Assembly: GCA_001789855.1 (NCBI GenBank)
Contig: MGAT01000001.1
Coordinates: forward strand, 1-17,098
DNA: 17,098 nt
Source: Candidatus Roizmanbacteria bacterium RIFCSPLOWO2_01_FULL_44_13
GTDB lineage: Bacteria; Patescibacteriota; Microgenomatia; UBA1406; GWC2-37-13
Direction: 5' to 3'
Position numbers and translations under genes: made by a program. Shown here in pieces: positions 623-16,204 of this stretch. Numbering within the stretch: the stretch's first letter is position 1; each line of letters opens with the position of its first letter. The notes below the pieces were generated by a model. The model saw only the letters and a list, made by a program, of their open reading frames with translations, had not been told where the DNA came from and did no database searches.

Positions 623-646
623 CCCCGCCACAGGCGGGGTTTTTTT
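623..646 (+). terminator. Strong intrinsic terminator in the leader of the kinase-methyltransferase gene (possible attenuator)
   Basis: A perfect 7-bp GC-rich stem, CCCCGCC (623-629) with GGCGGGG (633-639), closes a 3-base loop and is followed by seven T (640-646). This is a textbook rho-independent terminator. It ends only 11 bases before the ATG at 658, so there is no room for a promoter between it and that gene. It could end the pilin transcript, but it would also stop transcripts from the promoter-like sequence at 543-570, which makes attenuation plausible. A weaker upstream stem, AAAGC (594-598) with GCTTT (611-615), precedes it. Confidence 0.85.
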
Positions 647-657
647 AAGACAAAAAA

Positions 658-1998
658 ATGTTTAAAAAATCCGAACCTCCAATTGTCATCTCCGTCGGCG
701 GCAGCCTGATCGTTCCGAACGGCGGAGTGGATACGAATTTTTTGTCCAACCTCAATAAACTGATCAGAAATCAAGTTATAAAAGGTAGACGGTTTTTACT
801 GGTTGCGGGCGGAGGTAATATCGCCAGGCACTACCGGGACGCCGGGAAACAGATAATAGGAGATATTACCGATGAGGATTTGGATTGGCTGGCGATCCAC
901 ACCACCCGCCTCAACGCCCATCTTTTAAGAACGATATTCCAGGACATTGCCAACCCCAGGATTGTCATCAACTATGAAAAAAAGATTGCCAATTGGAAAG
1001 AACCAGTGGCAATCGGCGCCGGGTGGAAACCGGGTTGGTCGACCGACTACGACGCCGTCATTTTAGCCCGCGATTATAAGGCTAATGTGATAATAAATCT
1101 TTCCAACGTCGACCGCGTCTATGACCGCGACCCAAACAAATTTAAAGACGCCCGTCCGATTGAAAAAATGACCTGGGACGAGATGGAAAAACTGGTTGGC
1201 AATAAGTGGTCTCCTGGGTTGAACATGCCGTTTGACCCGATCGCTACTCAGTTGTCAAAGCAATATGGTTTAACGGTGATTATCGCCCCGGGCCACGACT
1301 TCAAAAATTTGGAAAACATCATCGAGGGAGAACCCTTTAAGGGTACGGTGATACAACCTTTCAAGATAGACGCCGGTTTTTACGACCACGACTATTATCT
1401 GGGAAAAAAAGGCGGGCACCGGTTCAACCGGGTCGAATCTTTAGGGGGCAAGATTTTTTACAACGCAATGAATTTTATTAGAGCACTCATCATAAAACTG
1501 TCGCTGAATCCCAAAAATTGTTTGGAGGTCGGCTGCGGCCTCGGCCACCTTATCCGCTGGTTGAGATTTTTTGGCATCGACGCCCACGGAATCGATTTCT
1601 CCGCTTACGCCCACAAACTCGCGCCCCCAGATATCAAGCCGTATATGAAAGTGGCCGATGTGGCCGACATCCCTTACAAGGATGACAGTTTCGACCTGGT
1701 CGTGTCTTTCAATCTTTTGCAGCACTTGGAAAGATCGAAGATAAAGCAGGCCGTCCAAGAAACGGTCCGCGTTTCCAGAAAATATATTTTCCACAAAATA
1801 ATCACTTCCGACCACAATATCCTGTATGGGTTATTTCATAGACGGAATTTTTCGGATGTATCATTCTTTCACACCAAGTACTGGCTAAAGTTGTTTTCCT
1901 CATTTAAAACAGTCACGGTAAAAACCGCTTCCCTGCTAAACCCGTTTGACTTCGTCGGCTCACGTTTTTTACTAAAGAAAAAGCAAAATGATTCTTAA
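658..1998 (+). CDS. Fusion: archaeal-type UMP kinase + SAM-dependent methyltransferase
   Basis: Residues about 8-234 form an amino-acid-kinase fold of the archaeal-type uridylate kinase (PyrH): N-terminal VISVGGSL, the GGGNIARHYRDAG glycine-rich segment, DLDWLAIHTTRLNAHLL, then NLSNVDRVYDRDP, WSPGLNMPFDP and a terminal GTVIQP. Such enzymes phosphorylate UMP to UDP with ATP. After a linker, residues about 285-405 form a class I methyltransferase, with motif I LEVGCGLG at 289-296, an acidic HGIDFS strand after it, and the motif-IV-like region DDSFDLVVSFNLLQHL. The two halves share one uninterrupted frame. The start ATG lacks a Shine-Dalgarno motif and sits just after a terminator hairpin; the 3' end overlaps recF by 11 nt. 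The methyl acceptor cannot be read from sequence. The kinase assignment is firm at family level; the biological reason for the fusion is unknown. Confidence 0.82.
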   Translation: MFKKSEPPIVISVGGSLIVPNGGVDTNFLSNLNKLIRNQVIKGRRFLLVAGGGNIARHYRDAGKQIIGDITDEDLDWLAIHTTRLNAHLLRTIFQDIANPRIVINYEKKIANWKEPVAIGAGWKPGWSTDYDAVILARDYKANVIINLSNVDRVYDRDPNKFKDARPIEKMTWDEMEKLVGNKWSPGLNMPFDPIATQLSKQYGLTVIIAPGHDFKNLENIIEGEPFKGTVIQPFKIDAGFYDHDYYLGKKGGHRFNRVESLGGKIFYNAMNFIRALIIKLSLNPKNCLEVGCGLGHLIRWLRFFGIDAHGIDFSAYAHKLAPPDIKPYMKVADVADIPYKDDSFDLVVSFNLLQHLERSKIKQAVQETVRVSRKYIFHKIITSDHNILYGLFHRRNFSDVSFFHTKYWLKLFSSFKTVTVKTASLLNPFDFVGSRFLLKKKQNDS

Positions 1999-3031
1999 AA
2001 AAATCAGCCTCTCCAATTTCCGCAACTTCAAAAACCAGGAACTCGTTTTCAACCGGCGCCTGACCATCGTCGCCGGCGAAAATTCCCGGGGCAAGACAAA
2101 TTTATTGGAGGCGATCTACTTTGTTCTCAAAGGCCAGGGATTTAGAGAAGAAAAAGAGGAGGAATTAATCAACCTAAACTTTAGCCGCGGGAAAGTAACC
2201 GCCGTATTTGAAGACAACGGCGCTGATAACGTTTTTGAAATCGACATCGACAAGTCGAATGGCAAGACGGTCAAGATCTTTTTTGTTGACCGCACCAAGA
2301 AAAGGCTGATTCTTTACAAAAAAGAATTGACGAGCGTGGTTCTTTTTACCCCGGACCAGATAAATATTATCAAGGGGGCGCCCTCATTGCGGCGCGAATA
2401 TTTCAACGCCGTTTTATCCGAGCGGGATGACGAATACAAAAAACACCTGAATAATTTTGAAAACGCCTTAAGGCGTAGAAACAGGATTTTGGAAAAGCAC
2501 GTTTCCGAAATCAAACTGCGCGACGAATTGAGTTTTTGGAACGACTACCTGGAGAAAGAGTCTCGGTATATAACGGAAAAAAGATCAGAATACGTGGTCT
2601 ATTTAAATAATCACAAAAAACTCGATTCGAAAATGTTTTCGATTTCTTATCTGAGGAATGATTTTAGCAAAAAAAACTTGACTGAAGTTTTTCCGAAAGA
2701 GATGGCATTGAGGAAGACTTTGATCGGCCCGCAGAAAGACGATTTCGATATAATCGTTCAAGACGCAACCTCAAAAAAAGACATTCACCGTTATGGGTCC
2801 AGGAGCGAGGAGAGGTTGGCGGTCTTTTGGCTGAAAATAAACGAGTTGAGATATTTTGAGAACGAACTCGGAAAACCGATCTTGCTCCTCGACGATATTT
2901 TTTCCGAGCTCGACTACCACAACAAAAAAATTATCTTGAATTTGATCGGTCAATATCAAACCATTGCTTCGACTACCGATGAAGAATTTCTTAAGGAAAT
3001 TAAAAGCGATAAGGAGATAATAAATCTTTAG
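1988..3031 (+). CDS. recF: DNA replication and repair ATPase RecF
   Basis: This 347-aa SMC-like ATPase is close to the usual RecF length. RecF acts with RecO and RecR to load RecA at single-strand gaps. The N-terminus ISLSNFRNFKNQELVFN is the standard RecF opening; the Walker A motif is GENSRGKTN at 30-38, followed by LLEAIYFV. The ABC signature lies near 270-276 as GSRSEER, degenerate compared with the usual S-x-G-Q-x-R. Walker B and D-loop are LLLDDIFSELD at 299-309. The ATG lies inside the end of the kinase-methyltransferase gene, so the two are probably co-transcribed. It converges on lexA with only 4 bases between the stops and no visible terminator. In many bacteria recF sits beside dnaN or gyrB; here it does not. 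Confidence 0.92.
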   Translation: MILKKISLSNFRNFKNQELVFNRRLTIVAGENSRGKTNLLEAIYFVLKGQGFREEKEEELINLNFSRGKVTAVFEDNGADNVFEIDIDKSNGKTVKIFFVDRTKKRLILYKKELTSVVLFTPDQINIIKGAPSLRREYFNAVLSERDDEYKKHLNNFENALRRRNRILEKHVSEIKLRDELSFWNDYLEKESRYITEKRSEYVVYLNNHKKLDSKMFSISYLRNDFSKKNLTEVFPKEMALRKTLIGPQKDDFDIIVQDATSKKDIHRYGSRSEERLAVFWLKINELRYFENELGKPILLLDDIFSELDYHNKKIILNLIGQYQTIASTTDEEFLKEIKSDKEIINL

Positions 3032-3035
3032 ATAA

Positions 3036-3605
3036 TCAGTTAAGTTTGCGAACGACCGCCTTGACGACTCCATAAATTTCCAAATTTTCCCGAGGGTGAA
3101 AAGGAGGGTATTTCGGGTTGGCCGCTTCAAGATAAGCCAATCTTTTTACTCTATCTTTTTTGAAAATTTTCAAGGTCCACTCGTGGTCGATCTGGGCCAA
3201 GACGATGTCGCCGCTGCCGGCCTCACGTTTGCGCTCTATGATGACGATGTCGCCCTCGAATATTCCGACTCCAGTCAAAGAGTCGCCCGAAACTTTCAGC
3301 AAAAACGCCGAAGCGGGGTCCTCTATTAGATAATCATCCAGGGTCAAATAGTTTTTGTTTTCTTCGGCCAAGATCGGGTAGCCGGCGCGGATTACGCCGT
3401 ACATCGGCAGGGCGAAAAAGTGAGAAGTGGGAGCGAGCTTGCCCGACTCTTTTTTCAAAAGCCCGGCCTCGACCCATTTGTTTATAAGCTTGAAGACGGC
3501 ATTTTTGGAAGAAAAACCAAAAAGCTTGAGCATCTCGGAATAAGAGGGGAGTCTACGGTTTCTCTTGAAAAATTTTTTCAAAGCATTCAATCTGTCGGTT
3601 GCCAT
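3036..3605 (-). CDS. lexA: LexA-type SOS repressor (self-cleaving S24 peptidase)
   Basis: The product from the second ATG (3605) has 189 residues. Residues about 1-58 are a LexA-like winged helix (GFSSKNAVFKLINKWVEAG as recognition region). The rest is the S24/UmuD-like autopeptidase: cleavage site Ala74-Gly75 in VIRAGYP, nucleophile Ser109 in SGDSL and general base Lys146 in EWTLK. The spacings Gly75-Ser109 (34) and Ser109-Lys146 (37) equal those of E. coli LexA (G85, S119, K156). Family knowledge: the protein represses DNA-damage genes until RecA filaments trigger self-cleavage. An in-frame ATG at 3611 would add two residues, but it begins 3 bases after the predicted -10 box and so probably lies upstream of the transcript; I prefer 3605. 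The gene is likely autoregulated (operator at 3620-3635). Confidence 0.93.
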   Translation of the reverse strand: MATDRLNALKKFFKRNRRLPSYSEMLKLFGFSSKNAVFKLINKWVEAGLLKKESGKLAPTSHFFALPMYGVIRAGYPILAEENKNYLTLDDYLIEDPASAFLLKVSGDSLTGVGIFEGDIVIIERKREAGSGDIVLAQIDHEWTLKIFKKDRVKRLAYLEAANPKYPPFHPRENLEIYGVVKAVVRKLN

Positions 3606-3613
3606 ACTCATTC

Positions 3614-3641
3614 ATTATAGTAAACATTTGTTCACTGTCAA
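3614..3641 (-). promoter_or_regulatory. lexA promoter with SOS-type operator filling the spacer
   Basis: Reading the minus strand, a perfect -35 TTGACA (3636-3641) and a perfect -10 TATAAT (3614-3619) are separated by 16 bases. These 16 bases (3620-3635) are GTGAACAAATGTTTAC, an imperfect palindrome with two symmetry mismatches in the 12 arm positions/centre apart from the core, matching the Gram-positive SOS box pattern GAAC-N4-GTTY. A repressor bound here would directly block polymerase. The predicted transcription start falls at or within about 2 bases of the ATG at 3605, giving a leaderless mRNA. Confidence 0.85.
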
Positions 3642-3655
3642 GAGATATTTATACT

Positions 3656-3679
3656 AAAAAACTCGAATCCGTTCGAATT
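3656..3679 (-). terminator. Intrinsic terminator of the rpoB-fusA operon
   Basis: On the minus strand AATTCGAA (3672-3679) pairs with TTCGAGTT (3660-3667), including one G-U pair, around a CGGA loop; the run of T continues through 3656. The stem is AT-rich, so it is weaker than the one at 623-646. It lies about 110 bases after the fusA stop and just upstream of the lexA promoter, which is where a terminator insulating lexA from the operon would be expected. Confidence 0.6.
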
Positions 3680-3689
3680 CTGCGTTTTT

Positions 3690-3767
3690 AAACCCGCAGA
3701 TACCTATTTTGAGGGAACGTTCGTTTGCAAGCGCAGCGGTTCCCGAGAAATACGGTATCGAGGGTTT
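3690..3767 (+). repeat. Long-hairpin repeat element, copy A
   Basis: This intergenic sequence folds almost end to end: AAACCC (3690-3695) with GGGTTT (3762-3767), GATACC (3699-3704) with GGTATC (3754-3759), TATTT (3705-3709) with AAATA (3748-3752), and GGGAAC (3713-3718) with GTTCCC (3739-3744) around a 20-base apical region. A second copy lies at 13967-14046 in the opposite orientation. Copy A is in the 3' untranslated region of the fusA operon, between the fusA stop and its terminator. It encodes no protein. It could be a structured RNA element or a small palindromic mobile repeat. Confidence 0.85.
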
Positions 3768-3786
3768 TATTAATGGAGCGACTCTT

Positions 3787-5889
3787 TTACACCTTATTTT
3801 CTGCCATGGCTTTGGAGATGTTTTTCGGAACCTCTTCGTAGTGGGAAGGCTCCATGTAGAAGATGCCGCGCCCTTCAGTGAGCGACCTTAAGATGGTGGC
3901 GTATCCGGAAAGCTCGGCCAAGGGGACATAACCTTTAATGACGACGGCGCGGGCGCGTTTTTCCGTCCCCAGTATTTTTCCGCGCTTGCTCGAGATGTCG
4001 CCGATGACGACGCCCATGAAATTCTCGGGAACCGTCACTTCCAGTTTCATGATCGGCTCCAACAAAGTGAGTCCAGCTTGTTTGGCGGCGTCCTGGAGAG
4101 CCATCGACCCGGCAATTTTGAAGGCGATGTCGGACGAGTCGACGTCGTGGTAGCTGCCGTCGATCAACGTCACCTCAAAATCCGTCATCGGATAGCCCAA
4201 ATAGACGCCTTTTTCCTTTGCCTCGATCACGCCTTTTTCAACCGAGGGAATGAACTCGGAAGGAATCGATCCACCTTTGATTTTATTGGTGAACTTGAAA
4301 CCTTCGCCTCGGGGCAAGGGGGCGATATTGACGACGCAGTGTCCGTACTGGCCGTGGCCTCCGGTTTGCTTGATGTATTTGGCTTCCACGTCGAGTGCTT
4401 CTCTTGTGACGGTTTCCTTATAAGCCACCTGCGGCTTGCCGACGTTGACGTTCATTCCCATCTCCCGCTTCATCCGGTCAACAAGAATTTCTAAATGGAG
4501 TTCTCCCATTCCGGACATAATCGTCTGACCCGTTTCGTGGTTTACCTTGACCTTGAAGGTCGGGTCTTCCTCGGCCAGCCTCTGCAAGGTGTAGGAAAGT
4601 TTTTCCTGGTCGGCTTTGGTCTTAGGTTCGATGGCAAGCGAAATGACCGGTTCGGGGAAATTAATTTTCTCGAGGATCAATGGCGCGGCCGGGTCGGCTA
4701 GAGTGTCGCCGGTTTTCGTGTCTTTCGGGCCAACCAAGGCGATGATCTCTCCGGCGTAAGCCTTATCAATTTCTTCGCGGTTGTTGGCGTGCATCAATAA
4801 GAGGCGGCTGACGCGTTCTTGTTTGTCGCGGTTGACGTTATAGACGTAGCTACCGGACTCGAGCGTCCCCGAATAGACTCTGACATAAGTCAGTTTTCCC
4901 ACGTGGGGGTCGAGTTGAATTTTAAAAGCCAGGGCGGCAAATTTTTCCCCCGGCGTCAACTTTCTTTTTACTTCGGCGTTAGTTTTCGGATCGTGTCCGG
5001 TAATTTCATCCAAATCGACGGGAGAGGGCAGATAGTCGACGATCGCGTTCAAGATGGGCTGAACCGCCTTGTTTCGGAGCGATGTGCCGCAGTAAACAGG
5101 AATTAGTTTGTAGGCGATGACGGCGCGGCGCAACGCGGCTTTCAATTCGGGAACGGTAATTTCTTTGGCGCTTAAATATTTGTCCAAAAGTTTGTCGTCG
5201 GTCTCGGCAATTTTTTCCACCAGCTTGGCGCGGGCCTTCGTTGCAGCGTCTTTCAGATCGGCCGGGATTTTCTCCACCCTAAATTCAATTCCCTGTTCGT
5301 CTTTATCCCAATATTTGGCTTTCATTTCGAATAAATCAATAACGCCTTTGAAGTCGGACTCCTTGCCTATAGGGTAGACCATGACCGCCGGATGCGCCCC
5401 GAGGCGGTCCCTAATTTCCTCGACGGTAGCGTCAAAGTCGGCGCCCAACTTGTCCATTTTGTTGATGAAGCAGATTCTCGGCACTTTGTATTTATCGGCC
5501 TGCCGCCAGACGGTTTCCGATTGCGATTGCACCCCTTCTTCGGCGTCGAAGATGACGACGCCCCCGTCCAAAACCCTCAAAGACCTCTCGACCTCGGCGG
5601 TGAAATCGACGTGGCCGGGAGTGTCGATTATATTGATGCGGACGTCGTTCCAGAAAGTGGTTGTCGCGGCAGAGACAATGGTAATGCCGCGTTCTTTTTC
5701 CTGCGCCATCCAGTCCATTTGGGTGGTTCCTTCGTCGATGTCGCCGATCTTGTATGAGCGACCCGTGTAAAAGAGAAATCTTTCCGTCGTCGTGGTTTTA
5801 CCCGAGTCGATATGGGCGATGATCCCGACATTGCGGATTTTATCCAACGGAACATTGCGGTCTTTAGTAATGATTGATTGCTGTGCCAT
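3787..5889 (-). CDS. fusA: Translation elongation factor G
   Basis: This 700-aa GTPase drives ribosomal translocation and, with RRF, ribosome recycling. The G domain shows G1 [19 protein letters not shown] (25-43; Ser where Ala is usual), [11 protein letters not shown] for G2, DTPGH at 89-93 for G3 and INKMD for G4. Domain II ([12 protein letters not shown]), domain III ([34 protein letters not shown]), domain IV ([26 protein letters not shown]) and the C-terminal domain V with [17 protein letters not shown] are all in order. Length and motifs are complete and normal. It is the last gene of the rpoB-rpoC-rpsL-rpsG-fusA operon, 6 bases after rpsG. No tuf gene follows, unlike the classical str operon. 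Confidence 0.98.
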
Positions 5890-5895
5890 AGGAAT

Positions 5896-6369
5896 TTACC
5901 ACTTCAGGTGGGAGAATGCCTTATTGGTTTCGGCCAATTTTTCGGTCTGGGCTTTTTTCGTGACGGCGGCACCGAGGTTTTTCGCCGCGTCGGTTATCTC
6001 CGCCAGAAGTTTGCCGGCAAAAGAATGAAATTCCTTATTGCTCCGTGCCCGTGCGGCGGTGATAATCCAATTTAAGGCAAGGTATAGTTTTCGGCTCCGC
6101 CTCACTTCGATAGGAACCAAGTATGACGCTCCTCCCAATCTTCTGGGTTTGACTTCGTGAAGAGGGGAGACATTATCGATTGCCTGGTGGAAAACCTTGA
6201 TCGGTTCTTGACCCTGGCTTTTCAGTTTTTCAAAAACGTCGTAGACGAGGCGCTCGGCGACGCTCTTTTTGCCTTCGAGCATGACGTAGTTGATGAACTT
6301 CGCCACTTCCAGGCTTTGATAAACCTTATCCGGTTTGACTGATAGTCTTTTATAAGCGTGTCTTGGCAT
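5896..6369 (-). CDS. rpsG: 30S ribosomal protein S7
   Basis: S7 is a primary 16S rRNA-binding protein that nucleates the 30S head and lies at the E site and decoding channel. The 157-aa product starts MPRHAYKRLSVKPD, contains the conserved VYDVFEKLK, NVSPLHEVKPRRLGGASY and VPIEVRRSRKLYLALNWI segments and ends NKAFSHLKW, matching the usual bacterial NRAFAHYRW end. Length is typical. It sits 6 bases after rpsL and 6 before fusA, so it is translated from the same polycistronic mRNA. In other bacteria S7 represses its own operon by binding the rpsL-rpsG intercistronic RNA; here that gap is too short to hold the known E. coli-type site, so autoregulation, if present, must work differently (inference). 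Confidence 0.98.
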   Translation of the reverse strand: MPRHAYKRLSVKPDKVYQSLEVAKFINYVMLEGKKSVAERLVYDVFEKLKSQGQEPIKVFHQAIDNVSPLHEVKPRRLGGASYLVPIEVRRSRKLYLALNWIITAARARSNKEFHSFAGKLLAEITDAAKNLGAAVTKKAQTEKLAETNKAFSHLKW

Positions 6370-6375
6370 AATAGA

Positions 6376-6798
6376 TTAGGCGGCCTTTACTTTCGGCAAT
6401 TTGGCGCCGTATTTTGATCGGGAAGTAGTGCGGTTGTCGACGCCTCCGGTGTCAAACTTGCCGCGGACAATATGATATTTAACTCCCGGCAGATCCTTCA
6501 CCCGGCCACCGCGGACCAGCACAATCGAGTGTTCGGCTAAATTGTGGCCGACGCCTTGGATATAGGCGGTCACTTCCATTTTATTGGAGAGCCTCACCCT
6601 GGCAACCTTTCTCAAAGCCGAGTTCGGCTTTTTCGGCGTCATGGTGCGAACTACCGTACAAACCCCTCTTTTTAGGGGGTTGTTGACTTTAAGGTAGCGA
6701 CGCTTGAGCGAATTAAAATTCTGCTTTAAAGCGATCGACTTAGACTTTTTTGTCCTTGTCTTCCTTCCCTTTTTGATCAGTTGGTTGGTTGTTGGCAT
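6376..6798 (-). CDS. rpsL: 30S ribosomal protein S12
   Basis: S12 lies at the decoding centre of the 30S subunit and controls accuracy. I take the start at the ATG at 6798, because the protein then opens [13 protein letters not shown], the normal S12 N-terminus; a TTG at 6810 would add four residues. The 140-aa product carries the extra N-terminal stretch (about residues 22-37, [15 protein letters not shown]) found in Gram-positive-type S12 and absent from E. coli. The streptomycin-related loop [11 protein letters not shown] and the [13 protein letters not shown] segment, including the aspartate that is methylthiolated in many bacteria, are unchanged, so no streptomycin resistance substitution is apparent. 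The 5' end overlaps the rpoC 3' end by 59 bases. Confidence 0.97.
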
Positions 6799-9700
6799 AA
6801 ACGCTTTCAAATTTACCGTAATATTTATCGATTAATTCAGCGGTAACTGGAATTAATCTGCCAATTATAACATTTTCTTTCAGGCCCAACAAGTAGTCGA
6901 CTTGGCCTTTGATGGCGGCGGAACTTAATACGTTTGTGGTTTGCTCAAATGAAGCGGCCGACAGCCACGAGTCGGTATAAATTGAAGCTCGGGTGATGCC
7001 AAGGATGGAAATCTTGCCGGTGGCCGGTTTTTGGCCTTTAGCCAAGGCCCTTTTGTTTTCCTCTACAAATCTGATCCGTGAAACGACCTCGTCTTTGATA
7101 AACGCCGTGTCGCCTTCGTCTTCTATAATGACCTTATCGCTCATCTTTCTAATAATGACTTCGAAATGTTTATCGTGGATGGCGATTCCTTGCGATTCAT
7201 AGACTTTTTGGATTTCGTCCAACAGATAGATCTGGGCACTCCTTAGTCCTCTGATCGACAAGACGTCGTTTAGGTCGAGGTAGCCCTCCGAAAGCGGAGT
7301 TCCGGAAGCAACGAGATCTCCGTCCTTGATTTTCAATTTTTGCGATATCGGAATGATAAATTCCTGCTCTTTTATATTGGAATCTTTGTCAGCGGACGTA
7401 ATCTTGACAGAATAGACTTCCTTTTCCGTGTCTTCCTGGATTGTTGCCTTGCCCGATATCTCGGCGATCGGGGAGACTATCTTCGGCGTCCTCGTTTCAA
7501 ACAGTTCCTCGACCCTAGGCAGACCTTGGGTGACGTCGGAAATCACGATACCGCCGAAGTGCCTTACCCGCATCGTCAACTGGGTGCCCGGTTCGCCGAC
7601 CGATTGGGCGGCAATCACTCCGACAGGAACGCCGATATCGACAATTTTATTGGTGGAAAGGTCTGTGCCGTAGCACTTTTGGCAGATGCCGTAGGGCGAC
7701 TGACAGAACAAAGGCGATCGGATGACAACTTTTTCGACATTATTTTTAATCAATAAATCGACTTTTTCTTGATCCAAAAGCGAATTTTTTTCGGCCAGCG
7801 TTTTTCCGTCTTTGACGATGTCGGCCATCGCGTAGCGGTTTTTGATTCTCTCTTTGAATTTGTCGCCTCGGACCATGTCGGTTGAAATTATCAGGCCTTC
7901 CTCGACGTGACAATCTTCTTGGCGGATGATCATGTCGTGGGCGACGTCGACGAGCCTGCGCGTCAGGTATCCGGCGTCGGCGGTTTTTAGGGCCGAGTCG
8001 GTCAAGCCTTTTCTTGCTCCCCGGGCGGAGATGACGTATTCAAAAATAGACAATCCCTGGCGGTAGTTAGATTTTGTTGGTACTTCGATGATCTTGCCCA
8101 ATGGGTCGACGACCAATCCTTTCATGGCGCTCAATTGCTTCAGCTGTTCTCGGGACGCTCTCGCGCCGCCGGACTTGATGATGATTTTCACCGGATTTTC
8201 TTCATCCAACTGCGCCCAGGTTTTGTCGGCCAGGGTTTCAGTGGTATCGATCCAAAGCTTGTTGGAATAACGTTTCTTTTCCTCGATAGTGAGCAGGCCT
8301 TGTTCAAAATTGCGCCTGACTTTTTCGATTTCGCGCTCGGTTTCGCCGATGATTTTGTCCTTGTCGGGAATAATTTCGCAGTCAAAAATAGAAACGGAAA
8401 GCCCTCCGGAAATCGTCGCTGCCCAGAAACCGACTTCCTTGACGCGGTCGATCAATTCACCGACGACCTTGGTATCAAACAATTTCATTGCCTTCAAGAC
8501 AAGGTTCTTTATATCGGAAGCCTTGACTTCCTCGTTGACAAATCTCAATTCATTGGGTAGGGTATCATTGAAAATGATCCGCCCGATGGTAGTCCTTATG
8601 ACGCGGCCGTCGACCTTGACCAAGATCGGCTCCCGCAAACTTACCTTGCCGACGGAAAAGAAGTTTATAGCTTCCGCGGCGTTGGCGTAAGCTTTTATGT
8701 CTTTGTCTTTTTTGTTGGCAAGGTGCGAGTTCATCGTCGTCAGATAGTAACAACCGAGAGCCATTTCTTTGTTCGGCAGAACTATCGGGGAGCCGTCGGC
8801 CGGTTTCAAAAGATTGTGGTATGGAAGCATCCTTTCCTTGACTTCATTAATCGCATTTTTGGAAAGGGGCAAAAACACCCCCATGGCGTCTCCGTCAAAG
8901 TCGGCATTGTATCCGGCGCAGACGGTCGGATGGAGTTTGATGGCGTGGCTGTCGGTCAATACCGGGTAGAAACCGAGGACAGACAGTTTATGGAGCGTCG
9001 GCGCCCGGTTCAACAATACCGGGTGGTCTCGGGTAATTTCCTCCAAAATGTCGTAAACGATCGACTCTTTTTTTTCCAAGAAATTCTTGGCGCTTTTAAT
9101 GTTCGGCGCAAGACCCCTGATGATAATTTCATGCAGGAGGAATGGTTTAAATAGTTCCAGAGCCATTTCTTTGGGGAGGCCGACTTGATCCAATTTCAAC
9201 TCGGGTCCGACGATGATCGTCGAGCGTCCGGAATAGTCGACTCTTTTTCCGAGCAAATTTTGGCGGAATCTTCCCTGTTTGCCGCGCAAAATATCGGAAA
9301 GGGATTTTTGTACTTTTGAGGCGACCGCGCCTCCTCGCCCCCGGCCCCTCGATTTCTGCAAGTCGATCAATGAATCGACCGCTTCCTGAAGCATTCTTTT
9401 TTCGTTGCGGAGAATTATTTCCGGCGCGCCCAAGTCGATGAGCTGTTTGAGCCTGTTATTTCGATTAATCACTCGACGATAAAAGTCATTGAGGTCGCTC
9501 GTTGCAAATTTGCCTCCCGGCAACTGAACCACCGGCCGCAAATCGGGCGGAATAACCGGCAAGACCGTCAACACCATCCATTTCGGGTCTATTTTTGCTT
9601 TGATGAAGGCCTCGATCGCCCTGACTTTTTTCAACAATTTATTTCTTCTTTCTCCCCTGGATTCGGATAAATATTTCAGAGCAGTCGTATACTCTTTTTG

Positions 9701-10540
9701 GATGTCAAATCCCGCCAGAATGTCGTAAAGCGCCTCGCTGCCCATTCCAACCGTTACGAAGTCTTCGACATTTTTTTCCTTGAGGTAGAGATAGTCGTCT
9801 TCTTCAATCACGTCATAGACTTCGATCGATTTGACGATCTTAGCTAATCGGTCAAAGAAGGCGGTTTTTTTTGATTTTTTTTCGACGAACTGATTGGACG
9901 ATAGTTTCAGATGCTCTCTTTCTTTAAAGTCGGTTTCCTGGCCCGTCATTTCAAGTTGTTCCTGGTTGGTAATTTTTTTCTTGGCGTCCTCCATTTGTTT
10001 GGCGAAGCCGGCCTTGATTTTTTCTTCTTCGCGGACTCTTTCCTCGTCCAGCGTTTTAATCTCGTCTTGCCCGATTTGTTGAATTACCTTTAGAGATTTT
10101 TTCTGTTTTTCGCGGTCCACCTCGGTGACAAGGTATAAAGCGTAGTAGATAATTCTTTCAAGCTGTTGAGGCGGAATGCCGAGGACAATGCTCAAGATCG
10201 AGGAAGAACCCTTGAAGTACCAGATGTGGGCAATCGGAGAGGCGAGTTTAATGTGGCCCATCCTCTCCCGGCGAACCGCCGAAGTGGTGATCTCGACTCC
10301 GCAGCGGTCGCAGACGATTCCTTTATAACGCATTCTTTTATATTTGCCGCAGTAACACTCGTAGTCTTTGGTCGGCCCAAAGATCCTTTCGTCAAACAAG
10401 CCGTCTTTTTCCGCCCGGAATGTCCGGTAGTTGATCGTTTCCGGTTTTGTCACTTCGCCGTGGGACCACTCTTTGACTCGTTCGGGCGAGGCGAGAGAAA
10501 TCCTTAGGCCGGAAAAATCTACAAGGTTAAGATCATCCAT
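6740..10540 (-). CDS. rpoC: DNA-directed RNA polymerase subunit beta'
   Basis: The 1266-aa catalytic clamp subunit. The N-terminal zinc ribbon has Cys62, Cys64, Cys77 and Cys80 ([19 protein letters not shown]). The magnesium-binding motif NADFDGD is at 545-551. The second zinc site is Cys877, Cys946, Cys953 and Cys956, with the last three spaced as in E. coli. The bridge helix/trigger loop region ([41 protein letters not shown]) is intact. Between [11 protein letters not shown] and GMGSEAL (about 141-264) there is a long charged, coiled-coil-like insertion not present in E. coli. The start ATG is 94 bases after the rpoB stop, beyond a cluster of palindromes. The C-terminal tail, ending KEDKDKKV, reads 59 bases into rpsL. 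Confidence 0.98.
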
Positions 10541-10554
10541 AGTTATTTACTCAG

Positions 10555-10571
10555 TCCTATTAATAATAGGA
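10555..10571. repeat. Perfect 17-base palindrome in the rpoB-rpoC gap
   Basis: TCCTATTA and TAATAGGA form perfect 8-base arms around a single A at 10563. It lies 15 bases upstream of the rpoC start. It may be part of the palindromic cluster continuing to 10638 or a stem in the intercistronic mRNA near the rpoC start. No function is established. Confidence 0.8.
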
Positions 10572-10610
10572 TCCTGCGACTCTCCCGATTAGATCGGGAT
10601 CGCTCAGGAT
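10571..10610. repeat. REP-like palindromic element in the rpoB-rpoC gap
   Basis: A 40-base hairpin: ATCCTG (10571-10576) with CAGGAT (10605-10610), CGA (10577-10579) with TCG (10600-10602), and TCCCGAT (10583-10589) with ATCGGGA (10593-10599) around a TAG loop. The motif CGCTCAGGATGAC at its right edge is one I recall from intergenic palindromic repeats in many bacterial genomes; that is memory, not a search. In the operon mRNA this would be a stable intercistronic stem. Confidence 0.8.
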
Positions 10611-10638
10611 GACCCTCTTTATTTGTTATGAGGGTCAT
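10609..10638. repeat. Hairpin spanning the rpoB stop codon
   Basis: ATGACCCTC (10609-10617) and GAGGGTCAT (10630-10638) are perfect 9-base arms around a 12-base AT-rich loop. The rpoB stop codon (10635-10637) lies inside one arm, so the hairpin begins within the last base of the rpoB coding sequence. It overlaps the neighbouring 40-base palindrome by two bases. No long T-run follows on the minus strand, so it does not look like a terminator. An effect on rpoB/rpoC ratio or mRNA stability is possible but unproven. Confidence 0.8.
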
Positions 10639-13600
10639 TTAATGTAATCAATTGATAATCCGAGGGCGTTTAATTCTTTGACCAAAACGTGGAACGATTC
10701 GGGAACCGAAGATTGGGGAATGTCGATGCCTTTAATGATTGATTCAAAGGCTTTGGTTCGACCGCGAACGTCATCAGATTTAATCGTCAACATTTCCTGC
10801 AAAGTGTAAGGAACTCGGTGCGACTCGAGGGCCCAGACCTCCATTTCGCCAAACCGTTGTCCGCCGAGCTGTGATTTTCCTCCCAACGGTTGTTGAGTAA
10901 CCAAAGAGTATGGACCGACGGATCTGGCGTGAAATTTGTCTTCGACCATATGAATAAGTTTCATGATGTAGGTCGTTCCAACCATCACTTTTCTTTCATA
11001 AGGCAACCCGGTTTGACCATCATAAAGAGTGACCTTGTTGTCAACCGGCAGGCCGATCTTTTTCAGGTTTTCGCTTACGAAATCTTCCCTCATCTTTTCA
11101 AAAACCGGAGCGGAAATGCTCATGTTGTTTTTTACCGCAATCGTTCCAATCAGGTTTTCAAAAAGCTGGCCCAAATTCATACGGGAAAGAATCGAGAGGG
11201 GGGAGAGAATGACGTCAACCGGCGTGCCGTCGGCAAGATATGGCATATCCCAGGCCGGGAGGACTTTGGAAATGACTCCCTTGTTTCCGTGGCGTCCAGC
11301 CAGTTTGTCTCCGACGGAAATTTTTCTCAATTGGGCGGTATTGACAATCATTCTCTTTAAGATGCTCGGTTCGAGTTCGTTCGGGTCGCGTTTGCCGTCG
11401 ATCACTTCGATATTGACAACGTATCCTTGTTTTCCATATGGAACGCGGAGCGACGTGTCTTTGATATCTTTGGCTTTTTCCCCAAAAATCGCACGCAACA
11501 ATCTTTCTTCGGCGGTCAGTTCCTTCTCTCCCTTAGGAGCAACTTTTCCGACCAAAATGTCTCCGCCCTTGACTTCGGTTCCAACCAGTACCAACCCATC
11601 CTTGTCCAAATTCTGCAAAACTTCTTCGCGGACGTTGGGGATGTCGCGTGTCAATTCCTCCGGGCCGAGCTTGGTGTCGACCAAATCGGCGACGAATTCT
11701 TCCATAGTGACCGAGGTCAAAACGTCTTCTTTGACCAGGCGGTCGGAAATGACAAAGCCGTCTTCGTATCCCAAACCGTTCAGTGAAGTGTAGGCAACGA
11801 CAAGATTTTTGCCCAGGGCGAGCCTTCCATTATCGGTTGCCGGGCCATCGATAATTATCTGTCCTTTTTTCACGCGCTCCCGTTTTTCCACCCTCGGCTT
11901 TTGGTCAAAAGCGACGTCTTTATTGGTGCGGACAAATCTCTCGAGAGGATAGGTATAGGTTTTGCCGCTTTTTCCTTTCATGACCATTTTTTCTCCGTCG
12001 ACGTATTTAACGACGCCGTCTTCTGGTGCCCTGAGGGTTCGTCCTAAAGCCAGGCTGATTTTTTCTTCCATGCCGGTGCCGACGATCGGTGCCGACGGGT
12101 CTATAAGCGGGACCGCCTGGCACTGCATGTGTGTTCCCATCAAAGCCCGCGAGGCGTCGTCGTTTTGGAGGAACGGAATTAAGGAAGCCGATGCTCCGAC
12201 CACTTGGCGGGCGGAAATGTCTATGAAATCGAGTTTTTCGGTTTCGATCTCGACGATGTCTCCCATATGTCGGGCAACGACGGTGTCGTGGCCAATGTAA
12301 CCGGAGTCATCGATGCGGATGTCGTTCGAGGAAATATAATATTTTTCTTCGTCGTCGGCCTGAAGATAAACTATATGGTTACTAATCTTGACTTTTGTCT
12401 TGCCCCCGGTCTTGACTTTTTCCAGCTTGCGATAGGGCGTTTCCAAAAATCCGTATCCGTTTACTTTAGCGTAAAGGGCCATATAAGTAACGACGCCGAT
12501 ATTTGGTCCTTCGGGTGATCTTATCGGGCAGATTCGCCCGTATTGGGACGATGAAATGTCGCGGATCGAGAACGAAGCCCTTTCCTTTTCTATCCCTCCC
12601 GGACCTCCGACGGTAATTCTCCTTAAATTGTCGAGTTCGGACAAGGGATTGGTCTGGTCGACGATGGTCGATAGTTGGCTGGTTCGATAAAAAGAATTGA
12701 TGGCGACAATGATCGGCTTGGAGTTGACTACTTGAGAGGGAGTGACGGTGACGTCGCTGGTGACCAAGCTCATTCTTTCTTTGATTTCCCGGGAAACGCG
12801 TACCATTCCTACCCTGATCCCATACATGCTAATCAGTTCTCCGACGGTACGGAGTCTTCGATTGCCCAGGTGATCGATATTGTCAAAACTGCCTTTTTGC
12901 TGAGTGAGGCCGACCAGATATTTGATCGTCTCGACGAGATCGGCTTTTGTCAATAGTTGATTTTCTTTTTTCTCCTCGTCCAAGCTGATTCCGAGTTTCT
13001 TGTTGATTTTATAGCGCCCGACGCGGGCCAGAGAATAGCGGCGAGGGTTAAAAAATAAATTATTGATGGTTTCGTAGGCGTTGTCAAGAATAAGGGGCTC
13101 GCCGGGGCGCACTTTTCGGTAGATCTCTAAAGTGGCCTCGTCTTTGGTTTTGGTTTGATCCTTTTTTAAGGTAGGAAGAATGTATTTTTCCACGAGACCT
13201 TGATCCAAACCTTGGAAGTTCGTTAGGATTTCGTTGTCGTTTTCTCCTTCAAAGGCGCGGATGAAGGCGGTCGCCAAAAACTTTCTTTTTTTATTGACTT
13301 TTACCTCGACCAAGTTGTTCTTGTTGATGGTGATGTCAATCCAGGCGCCGATATACGGGCGAAGCTCGGCATTATACAAAGTCAGGCCGGTTGTCTTATC
13401 GATTTCGGCGGTGAAATAGACGCCAGGGGAGCGGACGATCTGATTGATGATTGCTCTTTCGATTCCGTTTATGATAAACGTGCCCCGGTCTGTCATCTTC
13501 GGCAAATTAAAGAAATAAACGTCCTGGGATTTTTCTGCCCCGGTTCTTTTGTTCAAAAGGCGGAGCTTTAAATAGACAGGCGTGTCGTAGGTGAGTTTTT

Positions 13601-13853
13601 TTTGAAGACAGAGGGCGAGTTCGTAGCGGGGCTCTCCGAAATAGACGTCCTCGAAAAAGAGGGTAAACTTTTTCCCGGTGTAGTCGTCGATCGGGAAAAA
13701 TTCTTTTAGAATCTCTTTTATGTCGATTTTCAGCAACCGGTTCCAGGACTGCTTTTGCACCTCGATCAAGTCAAACTCGGCGAGCGCAGGATCCCCTTTC
13801 CCGAGCAGAAGATTCTTTTGGGGTTTATTTTTGATTTTATCTTTCGTAGTCAT
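10635..13853 (-). CDS. rpoB: DNA-directed RNA polymerase subunit beta
   Basis: The 1072-aa catalytic subunit, shorter than E. coli RpoB (1342) because it lacks the large E. coli insertions. Recognisable segments in order are FNLPKMTDRGTFIINGIERA, IVRSPGVYF, the rifampicin-pocket region SQLSTIVDQTNPLSE through GRICPIRSPEGPNIGVV, AFMP-less QNDDASRALMGTHMQCQAVPL, GYNGYED-equivalent LNGLGYEDGFVIS, GDKLAGRHGNKGVISK and the C-terminal GGQRFGEMEVWALE. In the rifampicin pocket, E. coli positions Q513, H526 and S531 correspond to Thr396, Asn409 and Thr414, suggesting natural drug insensitivity. It heads the operon; no rplJ-rplL lies directly upstream. The ATG has no Shine-Dalgarno motif. Transcription probably starts about 50 bases upstream. 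Confidence 0.98.
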   Translation of the reverse strand: MTTKDKIKNKPQKNLLLGKGDPALAEFDLIEVQKQSWNRLLKIDIKEILKEFFPIDDYTGKKFTLFFEDVYFGEPRYELALCLQKKLTYDTPVYLKLRLLNKRTGAEKSQDVYFFNLPKMTDRGTFIINGIERAIINQIVRSPGVYFTAEIDKTTGLTLYNAELRPYIGAWIDITINKNNLVEVKVNKKRKFLATAFIRAFEGENDNEILTNFQGLDQGLVEKYILPTLKKDQTKTKDEATLEIYRKVRPGEPLILDNAYETINNLFFNPRRYSLARVGRYKINKKLGISLDEEKKENQLLTKADLVETIKYLVGLTQQKGSFDNIDHLGNRRLRTVGELISMYGIRVGMVRVSREIKERMSLVTSDVTVTPSQVVNSKPIIVAINSFYRTSQLSTIVDQTNPLSELDNLRRITVGGPGGIEKERASFSIRDISSSQYGRICPIRSPEGPNIGVVTYMALYAKVNGYGFLETPYRKLEKVKTGGKTKVKISNHIVYLQADDEEKYYISSNDIRIDDSGYIGHDTVVARHMGDIVEIETEKLDFIDISARQVVGASASLIPFLQNDDASRALMGTHMQCQAVPLIDPSAPIVGTGMEEKISLALGRTLRAPEDGVVKYVDGEKMVMKGKSGKTYTYPLERFVRTNKDVAFDQKPRVEKRERVKKGQIIIDGPATDNGRLALGKNLVVAYTSLNGLGYEDGFVISDRLVKEDVLTSVTMEEFVADLVDTKLGPEELTRDIPNVREEVLQNLDKDGLVLVGTEVKGGDILVGKVAPKGEKELTAEERLLRAIFGEKAKDIKDTSLRVPYGKQGYVVNIEVIDGKRDPNELEPSILKRMIVNTAQLRKISVGDKLAGRHGNKGVISKVLPAWDMPYLADGTPVDVILSPLSILSRMNLGQLFENLIGTIAVKNNMSISAPVFEKMREDFVSENLKKIGLPVDNKVTLYDGQTGLPYERKVMVGTTYIMKLIHMVEDKFHARSVGPYSLVTQQPLGGKSQLGGQRFGEMEVWALESHRVPYTLQEMLTIKSDDVRGRTKAFESIIKGIDIPQSSVPESFHVLVKELNALGLSIDYIK

Positions 13854-13874
13854 CTCTTGGTGGGTAGATAATAG

Positions 13875-13902
13875 AAAAAAACCCCTAATTAATCAAAGGG
13901 TT
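13875..13902 (-). terminator. Terminator-like hairpin in the rpoB leader (possible attenuator)
   Basis: On the minus strand AACCC (13898-13902) can pair with GGGTT (within 13880-13885), followed by a run of seven T (13875-13881). The stem is only about 5 bp with a 12-14 base loop, so it is weak. It lies between the predicted transcription start near 13907 and the rpoB ATG at 13853, so a function would be attenuation rather than operon termination. Confidence 0.4.
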
Positions 13903-13913
13903 AGAAAAAAACT

Positions 13914-13947
13914 ATTATATCATACATTGGCGGTCTTTTAAAGTCAA
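13914..13947 (-). promoter_or_regulatory. Promoter of the rpoB-rpoC-rpsL-rpsG-fusA operon
   Basis: On the minus strand TTGACT (13942-13947) is followed after 17 bases by TATGAT (13919-13924). Overlapping it is an extended -10, TGATATAAT, with TATAAT at 13914-13919. Either arrangement places the start near 13907-13912, about 55 bases before rpoB. No other promoter-like sequence of this quality was seen within the operon. Confidence 0.7.
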
Positions 13948-13966
13948 ACGTATTTGAGGTCAATTC

Positions 13967-14046
13967 AAGACCCTCGATACCGTATTTTTCATGAACCGCT
14001 GCGCTTGCAAACGAATGTTCGTTCAAAATAGGTATCTACGAGTCTT
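13967..14046 (-). repeat. Long-hairpin repeat element, copy B (inverted relative to copy A)
   Basis: On the minus strand AAGAC (14042-14046) pairs with GTCTT (13967-13971), GATACC (14031-14036) with GGTATC (13976-13981), TATTTT with AAAATA, and GAAC with GTTC near the apex. By hand alignment its minus strand matches the plus strand of 3696-3765 at about 63 of 70 positions, while the outermost stem differs in sequence but still pairs. It begins at the stop codon of the upstream small membrane protein gene and ends about 20 bases before the rpoB promoter -35. Confidence 0.85.
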
Positions 14047-14333
14047 TAGTTATCCTTAATAAAAAACCGTTTACCTTTGTTACTGTGACTCGGGACAAGG
14101 AGCTTGATTTTACCTAGGATTGAATGCAGGGTGGAAAGCTTCTTCTGGTACTTTTTTTCTTTGGTTTTTTCTTCCTTTATTTCTTTTTTCTCGAGGTTGA
14201 CCAGGAGGTGGCCGTTTTTTTTGATGGCTGACCTCAACTCCCTCAGCACAAATATCAGCTGGAGGCCGGTAACAACGACCAGAATAGTTGTTACCGTTAT
14301 CGCAACAATGAGCAAGAATTGCGGTGCGTCCAT
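14046..14333 (-). CDS. Small single-TM protein with charged coiled-coil tail
   Basis: I do not recognise a named family. I start it at the ATG at 14333 (MDAPQFLLIV), one base after the nucleotidyltransferase stop, rather than at a TTG at 14369 that would overlap that gene. The 95-aa product has one hydrophobic segment at about residues 4-30 (FLLIVAITVTTILVVVTGLQ), followed by a polar helix rich in Lys and Glu (about 31-70, with KEIKEEKTKEKK) and a basic C-terminus. This suggests an N-terminally anchored protein with a cytoplasmic coiled-coil tail; the general form resembles DUF948-like proteins, but there is not enough to assign it. It is the last gene of the envelope cluster, and its stop codon touches hairpin copy B. 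Confidence 0.75.
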   Translation of the reverse strand: MDAPQFLLIVAITVTTILVVVTGLQLIFVLRELRSAIKKNGHLLVNLEKKEIKEEKTKEKKYQKKLSTLHSILGKIKLLVPSHSNKGKRFFIKDN

Positions 14334-14334
14334 A

Positions 14335-15075
14335 TCACAGTTTTCCGGCTTGAATTTTTTCGGCGACAAGGTTATTGGCTTTCAAAAGTTCGTCGTGGGA
14401 GGTTCCGGCGTCGATCCACCAGTCCAAAAGGTCGCACTCGAGCGTTCCCTCTTTGAGGTATACGTTGTTCAAATCGGTCACCTCTAGTTCGCCGCGGTCG
14501 GAGGGCTTTAATTTGGCGACAAAGTCAAATACCCGGTTGTCGTAGAAATAAACGCCCGTCTGGGCGATGTTGGATTTTGGCTTTTCCGGCTTTTCCTCGA
14601 TAGAAATAACCTTTCCGGCACTATCAATTTCTATGACGCCGTAATGCTTGGATTCCATTCCGGGCATTCTGATCCCAAAAACGACCGCGCCCTTCTCCCT
14701 TTTTTTAAACTTTTCTACGGTTGGCTTGAGATTATAGTTAAAAATGTTGTCGCCCAAGATGACGGCGATTTTTTCGTCGCCGGCAAACTCTTTCGCGCCT
14801 CCTATGGCGTTGGCGATTCCGGCCTTGGGATTTTCCTGAACAGAATAATAGAACTTTACTCCAAATTCAGCCCCGCCTTTGAGCAAGTTGGTAAACTGCC
14901 CGGCGTGGTCGGGGGAGCAGGAAATGAGAACCTCTTTGATACCGGCCTTCACGAGGGACTCAATTGGATAATAAATCATTGGCTTGTTGTAAACCGGGAG
15001 GAGGTGTTTGTTTGTCACCCAAGTCAAAGGTCTTAAACGGGTAGCGAGGCCTCCTGCGAGAATGACTCCTTTCAT
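14335..15075 (-). CDS. Sugar-1-phosphate nucleotidyltransferase (RmlA-like)
   Basis: The 246-aa product opens MKGVILAGGLATRLRPLTWV, the nucleotide-binding motif of the NTP_transferase family, with TNKHLLPVYNKPMIYYPIES directly after it, as in glucose-1-phosphate thymidylyltransferases. Further family landmarks are LGDNIF, YGVIEIDSAGKVISIEEKPE, TGVYFYD, RGELEVTDLNNVYL and WWIDAGTSHDELLKAN. The family joins a hexose-1-phosphate to dTTP or UTP to give an activated sugar for surface glycans. It is shorter than typical RmlA (about 290 aa), lacking part of the C-terminal helical region. No rmlB, rmlC or rmlD is in the window, so whether the product is dTDP-glucose is open. It lies 3 bases after the 3-TM protein gene, in an operon with surface proteins. 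Confidence 0.88.
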   Translation of the reverse strand: MKGVILAGGLATRLRPLTWVTNKHLLPVYNKPMIYYPIESLVKAGIKEVLISCSPDHAGQFTNLLKGGAEFGVKFYYSVQENPKAGIANAIGGAKEFAGDEKIAVILGDNIFNYNLKPTVEKFKKREKGAVVFGIRMPGMESKHYGVIEIDSAGKVISIEEKPEKPKSNIAQTGVYFYDNRVFDFVAKLKPSDRGELEVTDLNNVYLKEGTLECDLLDWWIDAGTSHDELLKANNLVAEKIQAGKL

Positions 15076-15078
15076 AAA

Positions 15079-15339
15079 TCAATTTGGGAAAATTATAATT
15101 TTCATTAAAAATACCAAAGTAAAGGCGATGAGGATATATTCTATCACAATTTTCAAGTGGAGCGAATCTTCAATGACGTGGTGGTAGACGCCCCAAATAA
15201 TATAAAAAATTGCAAAAGAAGTCAGAAAAATGAATTCCAAAAACCTCTCTCCCTTAAAAATATTGAGGGCGACAAGAAAAAATATTCCGGCTGTGACGAG
15301 GAGGAGATAGTCGAACAGGTGTTTTTTGATTTCGGTCAT
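15079..15339 (-). CDS. Small three-helix membrane protein
   Basis: I do not recognise the family. The 86-aa product has three hydrophobic segments: about residues 9-27 (YLLLVTAGIFFLVALNIF), 33-52 (FLEFIFLTSFAIFYIIWG) and 62-84 (LKIVIEYILIAFTLVFLMKI). Between the second and third is a VYHHVIEDSLH loop with three histidines and two acidic residues, which could bind metal, but this is speculation. It sits between the CAP protein gene (1 base gap) and the nucleotidyltransferase gene (3 base gap), so it is almost certainly co-translated with them. It is real rather than a shadow frame because it fills the space with that spacing and a clear membrane pattern. Confidence 0.8.
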   Translation of the reverse strand: MTEIKKHLFDYLLLVTAGIFFLVALNIFKGERFLEFIFLTSFAIFYIIWGVYHHVIEDSLHLKIVIEYILIAFTLVFLMKIIIFPN

Positions 15340-15340
15340 A

Positions 15341-16204
15341 TTAGAGAATGGCGCCTCGGCTGAAAATCAATAACCCTAAAAACATAAAGAAAATAAAAAC
15401 AAAATGGGCGAGGTTTTTGCCTCCGACTCTTATTATATTGAATTTATTGGCGAAGTAGAAATCGAGGGCGAGGGCAGCCAAGAGGAAACTCAAAAAGACA
15501 ATGTTAACGTTAAAAGAAAGCGTCGGAAGGCTAATTTTTTTGTTAGCCGACTGTTTTGCCAAGACGGCTTGTTCCTCTCCGATTGTCGGCGCCGGTTCTT
15601 GTGCGGCGATTACCGGCGGGCTGAGTGTGGCCAAACTGGTCGACGGAGTCCCGAACATCTGGACGACAAGGGTGGTCTCCTCGCCATTAATGACTCCGTT
15701 GACGACGGCAAATCCGACTTCCTTATATTCTTTTTTTAGAATGTTTTCGCGGTGGCTTTGAGACTTCATCCAGGCGTCGACCACACCTTGGCTAAAGAGA
15801 AAATTTTTGGCGAGGTTTTCTCCGGCAAATTCATAAGCGTATCCCGAAGTGATCATAAAATCCCAAGGAGTTTTTCCGGACGGCGAGTAGTGGGCCCAAT
15901 AATTGTAGATGAACATATCGTTGGCTTTTTCTTCGGCGGCCTTGGCCAACTTATCGTTATAGGTCAGCGTTGAAAGATTGTTTTTATGGCGCTCTCCGTT
16001 TGTTAATTCATAGAGCTTTGAGGTAGTAATATCGGTGGCAAAGCCGAGAACGTTATTCAACCCCATCTGTTTGAAGCTAAAGGTCAAAACCAAAGCTAAA
16101 ATCAGGTAGAATCCCAAAAAATCAGGATGAAGAGAACGGGCTTTAAAGTTATTCTCCTCGTGGGGGATAAAGAAATGAAAGAAGAATTTTTTTAGGCGCT
16201 GCAT
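15341..16204 (-). CDS. Membrane-embedded CAP (SCP/YkwD-like) domain protein
   Basis: The 287-aa product has a TM helix at about residues 29-44 (FLGFYLILALVLTFSF), an extracellular CAP domain at about 62-187, a Pro/Ala/Gln-rich linker, and two TM helices near the C-terminus (about 231-250 and 264-282). CAP landmarks are LTNGERHKNNL, AHYSPSG with His105, FAGENLA with Glu129 and SQSHRENIL with His151, followed by YKEVGFAV. These residues form the CAP cavity typical of bacterial YkwD-like proteins, whose biochemical function remains largely unclear. The arrangement of a leading TM, CAP domain and trailing TM pair is common in CPR genomes as I recall. The start overlaps the preceding lamin-tail gene by 56 bases. 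It is likely displayed on the cell surface. Confidence 0.9.
   Translation of the reverse strand: MQRLKKFFFHFFIPHEENNFKARSLHPDFLGFYLILALVLTFSFKQMGLNNVLGFATDITTSKLYELTNGERHKNNLSTLTYNDKLAKAAEEKANDMFIYNYWAHYSPSGKTPWDFMITSGYAYEFAGENLAKNFLFSQGVVDAWMKSQSHRENILKKEYKEVGFAVVNGVINGEETTLVVQMFGTPSTSLATLSPPVIAAQEPAPTIGEEQAVLAKQSANKKISLPTLSFNVNIVFLSFLLAALALDFYFANKFNIIRVGGKNLAHFVFIFFMFLGLLIFSRGAIL

Follow-up and report, generated by a model that had tools for sequence, protein, structure and literature searches.

The DNA analysed here, a window of 17,098 nucleotides (nt) from Candidatus Roizmanbacteria bacterium RIFCSPLOWO2_01_FULL_44_13 (contig MGAT01000001.1, positions 1 to 17,098), carries two oppositely oriented hairpins around its rpoB-fusA gene block. 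These hairpins are probably two copies of a non-autonomous mobile palindrome, which invades genes, codes for protein and resembles the Rickettsia palindromic elements (RPEs) in behaviour. They belong to a family with a conserved, covarying skeleton, which has multiplied in its own genome and is absent from the matching loci of relatives. Copies in spacers lie mostly right behind stop codons. Moreover, many copies of relatives lie in frame within conserved genes, which an earlier, sequence-only reading of the window could not see.

Two covariance models were used. The first was built from 21 copies of the source genome, with L018 (which holds an N run) and partial copies left out of the alignment; the second was built from 63 diverse copies (46 of 48 sources, with a stricter E-value), and three earlier reverse-strand readings are absent from it. 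Read inward, the element shows a variable outer stem, an asymmetric TC/TNC internal loop, a GATACC/GGTATC stem with an extra, bulged G after GATACC, two variable pairs, TTT/AAA, and mostly TCG...CTCA around an inner hairpin whose sequence and size vary widely between copies. The outer stem is most often AAAGC/GCTTT and varies freely, the inner stem is conserved, and the element mostly measures about 70-105 nt. The sequence-only reading had proposed a covariance model with a covariation test, and also a count of copies in the genome and its relatives; both speak for a family. Over 17 pairs and 63 distinct sequences, pairing was kept in 94.9% of cells, compared with 80.8% in shuffles and 55.3% in the best slid control. 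Two-sided changes were found in 142 cells versus 28 in shuffles, with 14 of the 17 pairs having them; the structure was derived from the same sequences, which favours it, and relatedness inflates covariation counts, but the gap to the controls is still large. In two copies of the source genome, L023 (G000:C17:16107-16173) and L027 (G000:C17:10692-10732), the skeleton is kept and the inner hairpin is different or almost absent, as if the terminal hairpin could be exchanged or lost. A descriptor for any stem with a TC/TNC loop was also tried and, beyond the family, found two miniature hairpins in the C-TC-G class. This class ranked only second (one strand) or sixth (both strands) among loop classes, so the TC/TNC loop alone gives no signal.

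The assembly of the source genome comprises 467,269 bases in 31 contigs and is 81% complete. BLAST with the first window copy (copy 1) gave 28 rows, taken as about 25 separate full or partial copies, and the model from 63 copies gave 22 strong and 3 weak matches. The window pair is thus not special: it makes up 2 of 22 strong dispersed copies, ordinary members of the family. The flanks of the copies are unrelated to each other. All 21 distinct copies were closer to another copy of the same genome than to any compared foreign copy (mean nearest identity 0.91 versus 0.70), a burst within this genome.

Among relatives, plain DNA similarity gave a weak match in 1 of 56 (G017), at a site with the same skeleton and another inner hairpin. 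The model from 21 copies (E-value 0.01) matched in 39 of 72 genomes of the family in GTDB, and the model from 63 copies (1e-5) gave 171 matches, spread over 17 of the 20 genomes in the genus, the source genome being included in both counts; copy number per genome ranges from 0 to 22 across the genus. In wider samples, matches were found in 39 of 373 genomes of the class (1e-4; only 11 candidates scored per genome) and in 2 of 379 genomes of the phylum (1e-6), one of these being the source genome. The element is mainly confined to one family and its order; elsewhere its copies are scattered. A pattern scan of a genome collection returned four stretches, three from Candidatus Roizmanbacteria; the fourth, from Cytophagaceae (L048), was set aside because it is without the outer features of the family. 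Viral carriage was rejected as well, as the first pattern gave one viral stretch (L051), again without these outer features, and a broader pattern gave none among the viral sequences. No report of such an element in Patescibacteria was among the results listed from the open-access literature.

The position of the element relative to genes was determined by setting 199 aligned rows (194 distinct) against mechanically called frames of at least 80 amino acids (aa). Intergenic copies had a median distance of 2 nt to the nearest stop codon (82 of 108 distances between -25 and 20 nt) and of 19 nt to the start codon (59 of 134 in the same range). With frames below 100 aa excluded, a stop codon lay within 5 nt of 48 of 81 tandem copies, namely of 35 among 55 sense and of 13 among 26 antisense ones. 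The stop was nearer than the start in 37 of the 50 tandem copies having at least 10 nt of remaining spacer. Such positions would suit bidirectional intrinsic terminators, with an A-rich left and a T-rich right arm, insulating transcription units behind genes. The arms, mostly of the AAAGC/GCTTT form, agree with this, and both window copies have a gene end on one side and a promoter-like sequence on the other. However, 74 of the 175 rows from other genomes lie wholly within an open frame (2 of 24 in the source genome), and conservation is found in the inner stem, with the outer arms varying freely. Moreover, the median distance to the next start is 17 nt in the 55 sense-strand tandem spacers, and termination there would silence the following gene. 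A terminator role is unlikely on this balance.

Both strands occur among the copies. Family and coding strand coincide for 51 of 76 intragenic rows, and for 56 of 79 rows in tandem spacers within 400 nt. This preference, together with the strong covariation, would be consistent with a cis-acting structured RNA or a protein-binding site serving a host function. On the other hand, copy number varies from 0 to 22 within one genus, the host genes are unrelated, both strands are used, and Rfam had no match, either in the window at the gathering threshold or, for the element, in eight loci searched with an E-value up to 0.1, where only four tRNAs were found. A host function of this kind is quite improbable, and the 3′-UTR structured RNA of the sequence-only reading is not supported as a known RNA, as Rfam is unmatched and open frames enclose many of the relatives' copies. 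The length of the element modulo 3 (remainders 0/1/2) was 12/37/27 for intragenic and 37/41/45 for intergenic copies, a hint only, since the borders vary.

The copies inside genes interrupt the Tgt, DprA, Fmt, TatD, NAD synthase and MiaB groups recurrently across genomes, and each adds roughly 23-47 codons. One or two host proteins per gene group were submitted to NCBIfam; 17 of 20 matched families at 1e-10, some below curated cut-offs, and three had no match. The matched hosts were Tgt, DprA, Fmt, TatD, tyrosine-tRNA ligase, acetate-CoA ligase, glutamate dehydrogenase, NadE, QueA, MiaB, an M16-like peptidase, MurD, a P-type ATPase, LeuRS, LepA (a short frame of 437 aa, so that the gene may be incomplete) and two glycosyltransferases. 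In a pair of glutamate dehydrogenases, one carries the element and its relative has a short native linker at that place. For acetate-CoA ligase, one relative has another repeat-like insert in the same loop as the element of G010.

Tgt offered a test with less bias. It was found in 56 of 72 genomes, and in 54 of these 56 the matched parts lie in a single open frame, which a contig end sometimes cuts short; the two exceptions are an N run (G016) and a frameshift (G028), the locus of the latter holding no called element. In 54 Tgt loci, 27 element rows were obtained (E-value up to 0.05), 18 of them inside the main Tgt frame and 7 outside Tgt; the remaining two are L260, which lies past the N run in the Tgt of G016, and a row that reads a counted copy in reverse (E-value 0.029). 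All 18 copies within the main frame, spread over 14 genomes, lie on the coding strand and leave the frame open. A random frame would give 18 of 18 with a probability of (1/3)^18, a figure to be read with the possibility that copies at the same site share ancestry. The element occupies three loops of the protein, in a loop table from which G016, G028 and the partial Tgt L250 were excluded. Among 47 aligned of 120 listed homologues, these loops vary over 6-60, 9-59 and 12-50 residues and the rest of the protein over 330-352, so nearly all length variation is held by the three loops. Alignment to solved TGT structures placed gaps at the same three loops. The Tgt query was identical to a database entry covering 12 sequences on 7 contigs, and thus the insert is not the error of one assembly.

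Palindromes that are bypassed have been described in yeast mitochondria (PMC6649704). The intragenic copies could likewise be RNA-level insertions, spliced out or bypassed by the ribosome as in Magnusiomyces mitochondria. The conserved fold and the similar Watson-Crick pairing of intragenic (90.2%) and intergenic (91.6%) copies would fit this. The open Tgt frames argue against it, because they would not be needed without translation: none of the 18 copies closes the frame, and neither of the two interrupted genes has a called element at the break. We regard splicing or bypass as very unlikely.

The two window copies and their neighbours are as follows.

3036..3611, minus strand: S24-peptidase (lexA-like) gene, downstream neighbour of copy 1
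3657..3689, plus strand: miniature hairpin with a C-TC-G / C-TGC-G frame, oppositely oriented and directly adjoining copy 1
3690..3767, minus strand: copy 1, between fusA and the lexA-like gene; covariance-model match 3689-3768
3787..5889, minus strand: fusA (elongation factor G), upstream neighbour of copy 1
10635..13853, minus strand: rpoB, downstream of copy 2
13967..14046, plus strand: copy 2, immediately following the stop codon of the 107-aa frame and ahead of the promoter-like sequence of rpoB; model match 13967-14046
14046..14369, minus strand: 107-aa frame, function unassigned, with its stop codon touching copy 2

The sequence-only reading had described a pair in opposite orientation, about 90% identical over a 70-base core, both members of which fold, keep their pairing while the outer stem changes and follow the 3′ end of a minus-strand gene. 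This description was borne out. A repeat search found one 77-nt inverted pair (3692-3768 and 13967-14043), 88% complementary, with 10,198 nt between its arms. Set against 200 dinucleotide shuffles, both copies folded better than every one of them on each strand, with z of -4.5 and -6.1 for copy 1 and of -3.5 and -4.3 for copy 2. The difference between AAACCC/GGGTTT and AAGAC/GTCTT in the outer stems of the two copies is a compensatory change, and AAAAGC/GCTTTT, AAAA/TTTT, AGGG/CCCT and GTT/AAC occur as further outer stems in the source genome. Copy 1, whose family strand is the minus strand and reads CTCGATACC...GGTATCTGCG, lies 19 nt beyond the 3′ end of fusA at 3787. At copy 2, the last base of the outer arm is overlapped by the stop codon of the 107-aa frame (frame end 14046); a stretch similar to this frame is present in the rpoB loci of six relatives. 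Miniature hairpins of the form CTCGAAT...ATTCTGCG with the loop frame of the family were seen at 3657-3689 and in L033 at 5855-5897, each beside a full copy.

The same pair had led to the idea of a recombination switch flipping the 10-kb rpoB-fusA block. The inverted arrangement, with 88% over 77 nt, favours it, but the relatives speak against it. Upstream of rpoB, 11 of 19 relatives have the same genes, with order and orientation unchanged; of the other rpoB loci, four have less than 130 nt of upstream sequence and four are without these neighbours in the 0.9-1.5 kb covered. The fusA gene was found in 18 of 19 relatives, and in the three where the lexA-like gene directly follows it the orientation is again the same. 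No element was present in any of the 38 rpoB and fusA loci of relatives (E-value 0.05), and the pair is only two of 22 dispersed copies. In G003, for example, the spacer behind the homologue of the 107-aa frame leads straight into the rpoB promoter-like sequence, without a hairpin. A switch of this kind can hardly be expected. Because the matching loci of relatives are empty, both window copies look like gains of this lineage.

Several other features were seen at these and related loci. In G003, fusA matches in two pieces (L318 and L319, G003:C12:44013-44481) with frames of 599 and 84 aa, due to a frameshift or an assembly error. Another palindromic repeat, GTCATTCCCGCG..GGCGGGAATC, sits at or close behind fusA in five relatives (L309, L312, L313, L315, L316), so the spacer behind fusA attracts more than one repeat family. 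Locus L046 (G017:C7) holds AT-rich clusters of CAAATAAACAAAT-like words, further hairpin-rich repeats, at about 10.7-12.5 kb and 18.2 kb. After the rpoB promoter-like TTGACT...TATAAT, at the presumed transcript start, a CCC...GGGG hairpin with a T run lies at 13869-13947 (minus strand); a like hairpin and T run occur in the rpoB leaders of most relatives, and it may act as a leader attenuator of rpoB-rpoC.

The insertions are probably tolerated because they fall within permissive loops or between a stop codon and a start shortly after it, and selection would have removed the others. How the palindrome spreads can be outlined with less certainty. Spread probably proceeds via a folded single strand recognised by a putative trans-acting enzyme, in analogy to the Y1 (HUH) transposases that act on REP (repetitive extragenic palindromic) and IS200/IS605 hairpins. 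Such a route is made probable by the conserved parts, which are the bulge and the asymmetric loop, and by the borders: direct repeats of 2-8 nt at the borders of 194 copies were not above shuffled pairings, and no target-site duplication was detected. Flank complementarity was above shuffles in source-genome and intragenic copies and not in other intergenic copies. The search for a mover covered Y1_Tnp (PF01797) and RVT_1 (PF00078). A reverse transcriptase was rejected, as PF00078 was found in none of the 20 genomes of the genus. Y1_Tnp was found in 15 of the 20, namely in 15 of the 17 that bear the element and in none of the three that do not; the chance that the three element-free genomes all fall among the five Y1-free ones is 10/1140 (calculated by hand). 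Y1 thus follows the presence of the element but shows no physical linkage with it, and is a candidate mover at most.

Several points weigh against a protein-coding mobile palindrome moved in this way. No Y1 was found in the source genome, the one with the burst, at 81% completeness, nor in the element-bearing G004, and none of the 24 Y1 loci examined (51 rows listed) carries the element, the one match having an E-value of 4.3. Mobility is read from the distribution of copies, and no close strain pair yielded exact insertion borders. In most of the 14 tabulated relatives, foreign and own neighbours are about equally close, so that many copies of relatives are old and inherited. The frames were called mechanically, and a few of them are below 100 aa. 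Finally, wobble counts give no clear lead on RNA versus DNA: overall they show more A-C (113, of which 53 come from two columns) than G-T (60), and the A-C excess does not follow the transcribed strand. A small mobile palindrome, one of the earlier suggestions, is supported by the many near-identical copies, their unrelated flanks, the burst and the empty loci of relatives. Of the labels attached to that suggestion, the hallmarks looked for were not found: no GTAG foot and no element at the 24 Y1 loci for REP-like, and no target-site duplication for miniature inverted-repeat transposable element (MITE).

An attC site of an integron has an outer box, an unpaired spacer, an inner box with an extrahelical base and a variable terminal structure, and the core of its outer box is GTT/AAC. 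The Roizmanbacteria element is similarly arranged, and it is possible, although doubtful, that the palindromes are substrates of an undescribed single-strand recombination system of Roizmanbacteria, attC-like outside any integron. The conserved stem, the bulged G and the TC/TNC loop would then make up a site of folded DNA; its cutting and pasting would leave no target duplication, and its terminal hairpin would be exchangeable. Unlike attC, the outer pairs are mostly A-T, A-T, G-C and C-G in a freely varying arm, and the copies lie in operon spacers and inside genes, not in cassette arrays. A gene-cassette array, suggested by clustered copies, was set aside because the surrounding frames look like ordinary operon genes with the element in their spacers. 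If the recombination system were real, it would repeatedly drive short peptides into the same loops of housekeeping enzymes, and loop evolution in this clade would be largely powered by a selfish element.

The preferred reading, a mobile palindrome that enters genes, has its nearest likeness in the RPEs and in the palindromic elements of Wolbachia. RPEs are palindromes of 105-146 bp found in spacers and in frame within conserved genes (PMC2229807, PMC10969869). Like these, the present element is a hairpin of about 100 nt without a known mover, and the RPE trait of a short palindrome in spacers and in frame in unrelated conserved genes is found in the Roizmanbacteria family. It differs in its bacterial group and in its skeleton with the bulged G and the TC/TNC loop; the two are likened by behaviour and description. 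The RPEs of R. conorii end in CGTC (PMC3733652), whereas the consensus here has (A)AAGC and GCTTT at its ends, CTTCG ahead of the right arm and no CGTC. Passages of the same paper describe GTAG REPs with REP-associated tyrosine transposases (RAYTs); REPs lie mostly downstream of coding regions and sometimes inside them, as in recB, where two species have them at nearly the same place. Protein-coding palindromes are discussed there mainly for Rickettsia and Wolbachia, and intragenic REPs for some other bacteria. The Roizmanbacteria copies are likewise imperfect hairpins behind and sometimes inside genes, in a genus where most genomes carry Y1 genes. Unlike REPs, they have no GTAG foot (column 148 is T in 48, G in 12 and A in 3 of 63 copies, and only the A form gives GTAG, on the other strand), and, unlike the REP/RAYT arrangement (REPtron), none flanks the Y1 loci examined. 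MITEs such as ERIC, RUP and NEMIS are also short, non-coding alone, dispersed and bounded by inverted repeats (PMC2229807); the present element differs in that nearly its whole length is one hairpin and no target-site duplication was detected. The family shares the behaviour of RPEs and REPs, not their sequence tags.

The interest of these results rests on the family rather than on the two copies of the window. The Roizmanbacteria element resembles a rare kind of selfish DNA from Rickettsia, and in small-genome Patescibacteria the family lengthens tRNA-modifying enzymes, tRNA ligases, DprA and a cell-wall ligase by about 23-47 codons. A protein-coding palindrome family in this group would point to more than one origin of the strategy. 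The conserved skeleton offers a way into the long-standing question of which enzyme moves such palindromes, and the three Tgt loops, with fresh, decayed and no inserts, form a natural series on the birth and tolerance of new protein segments.

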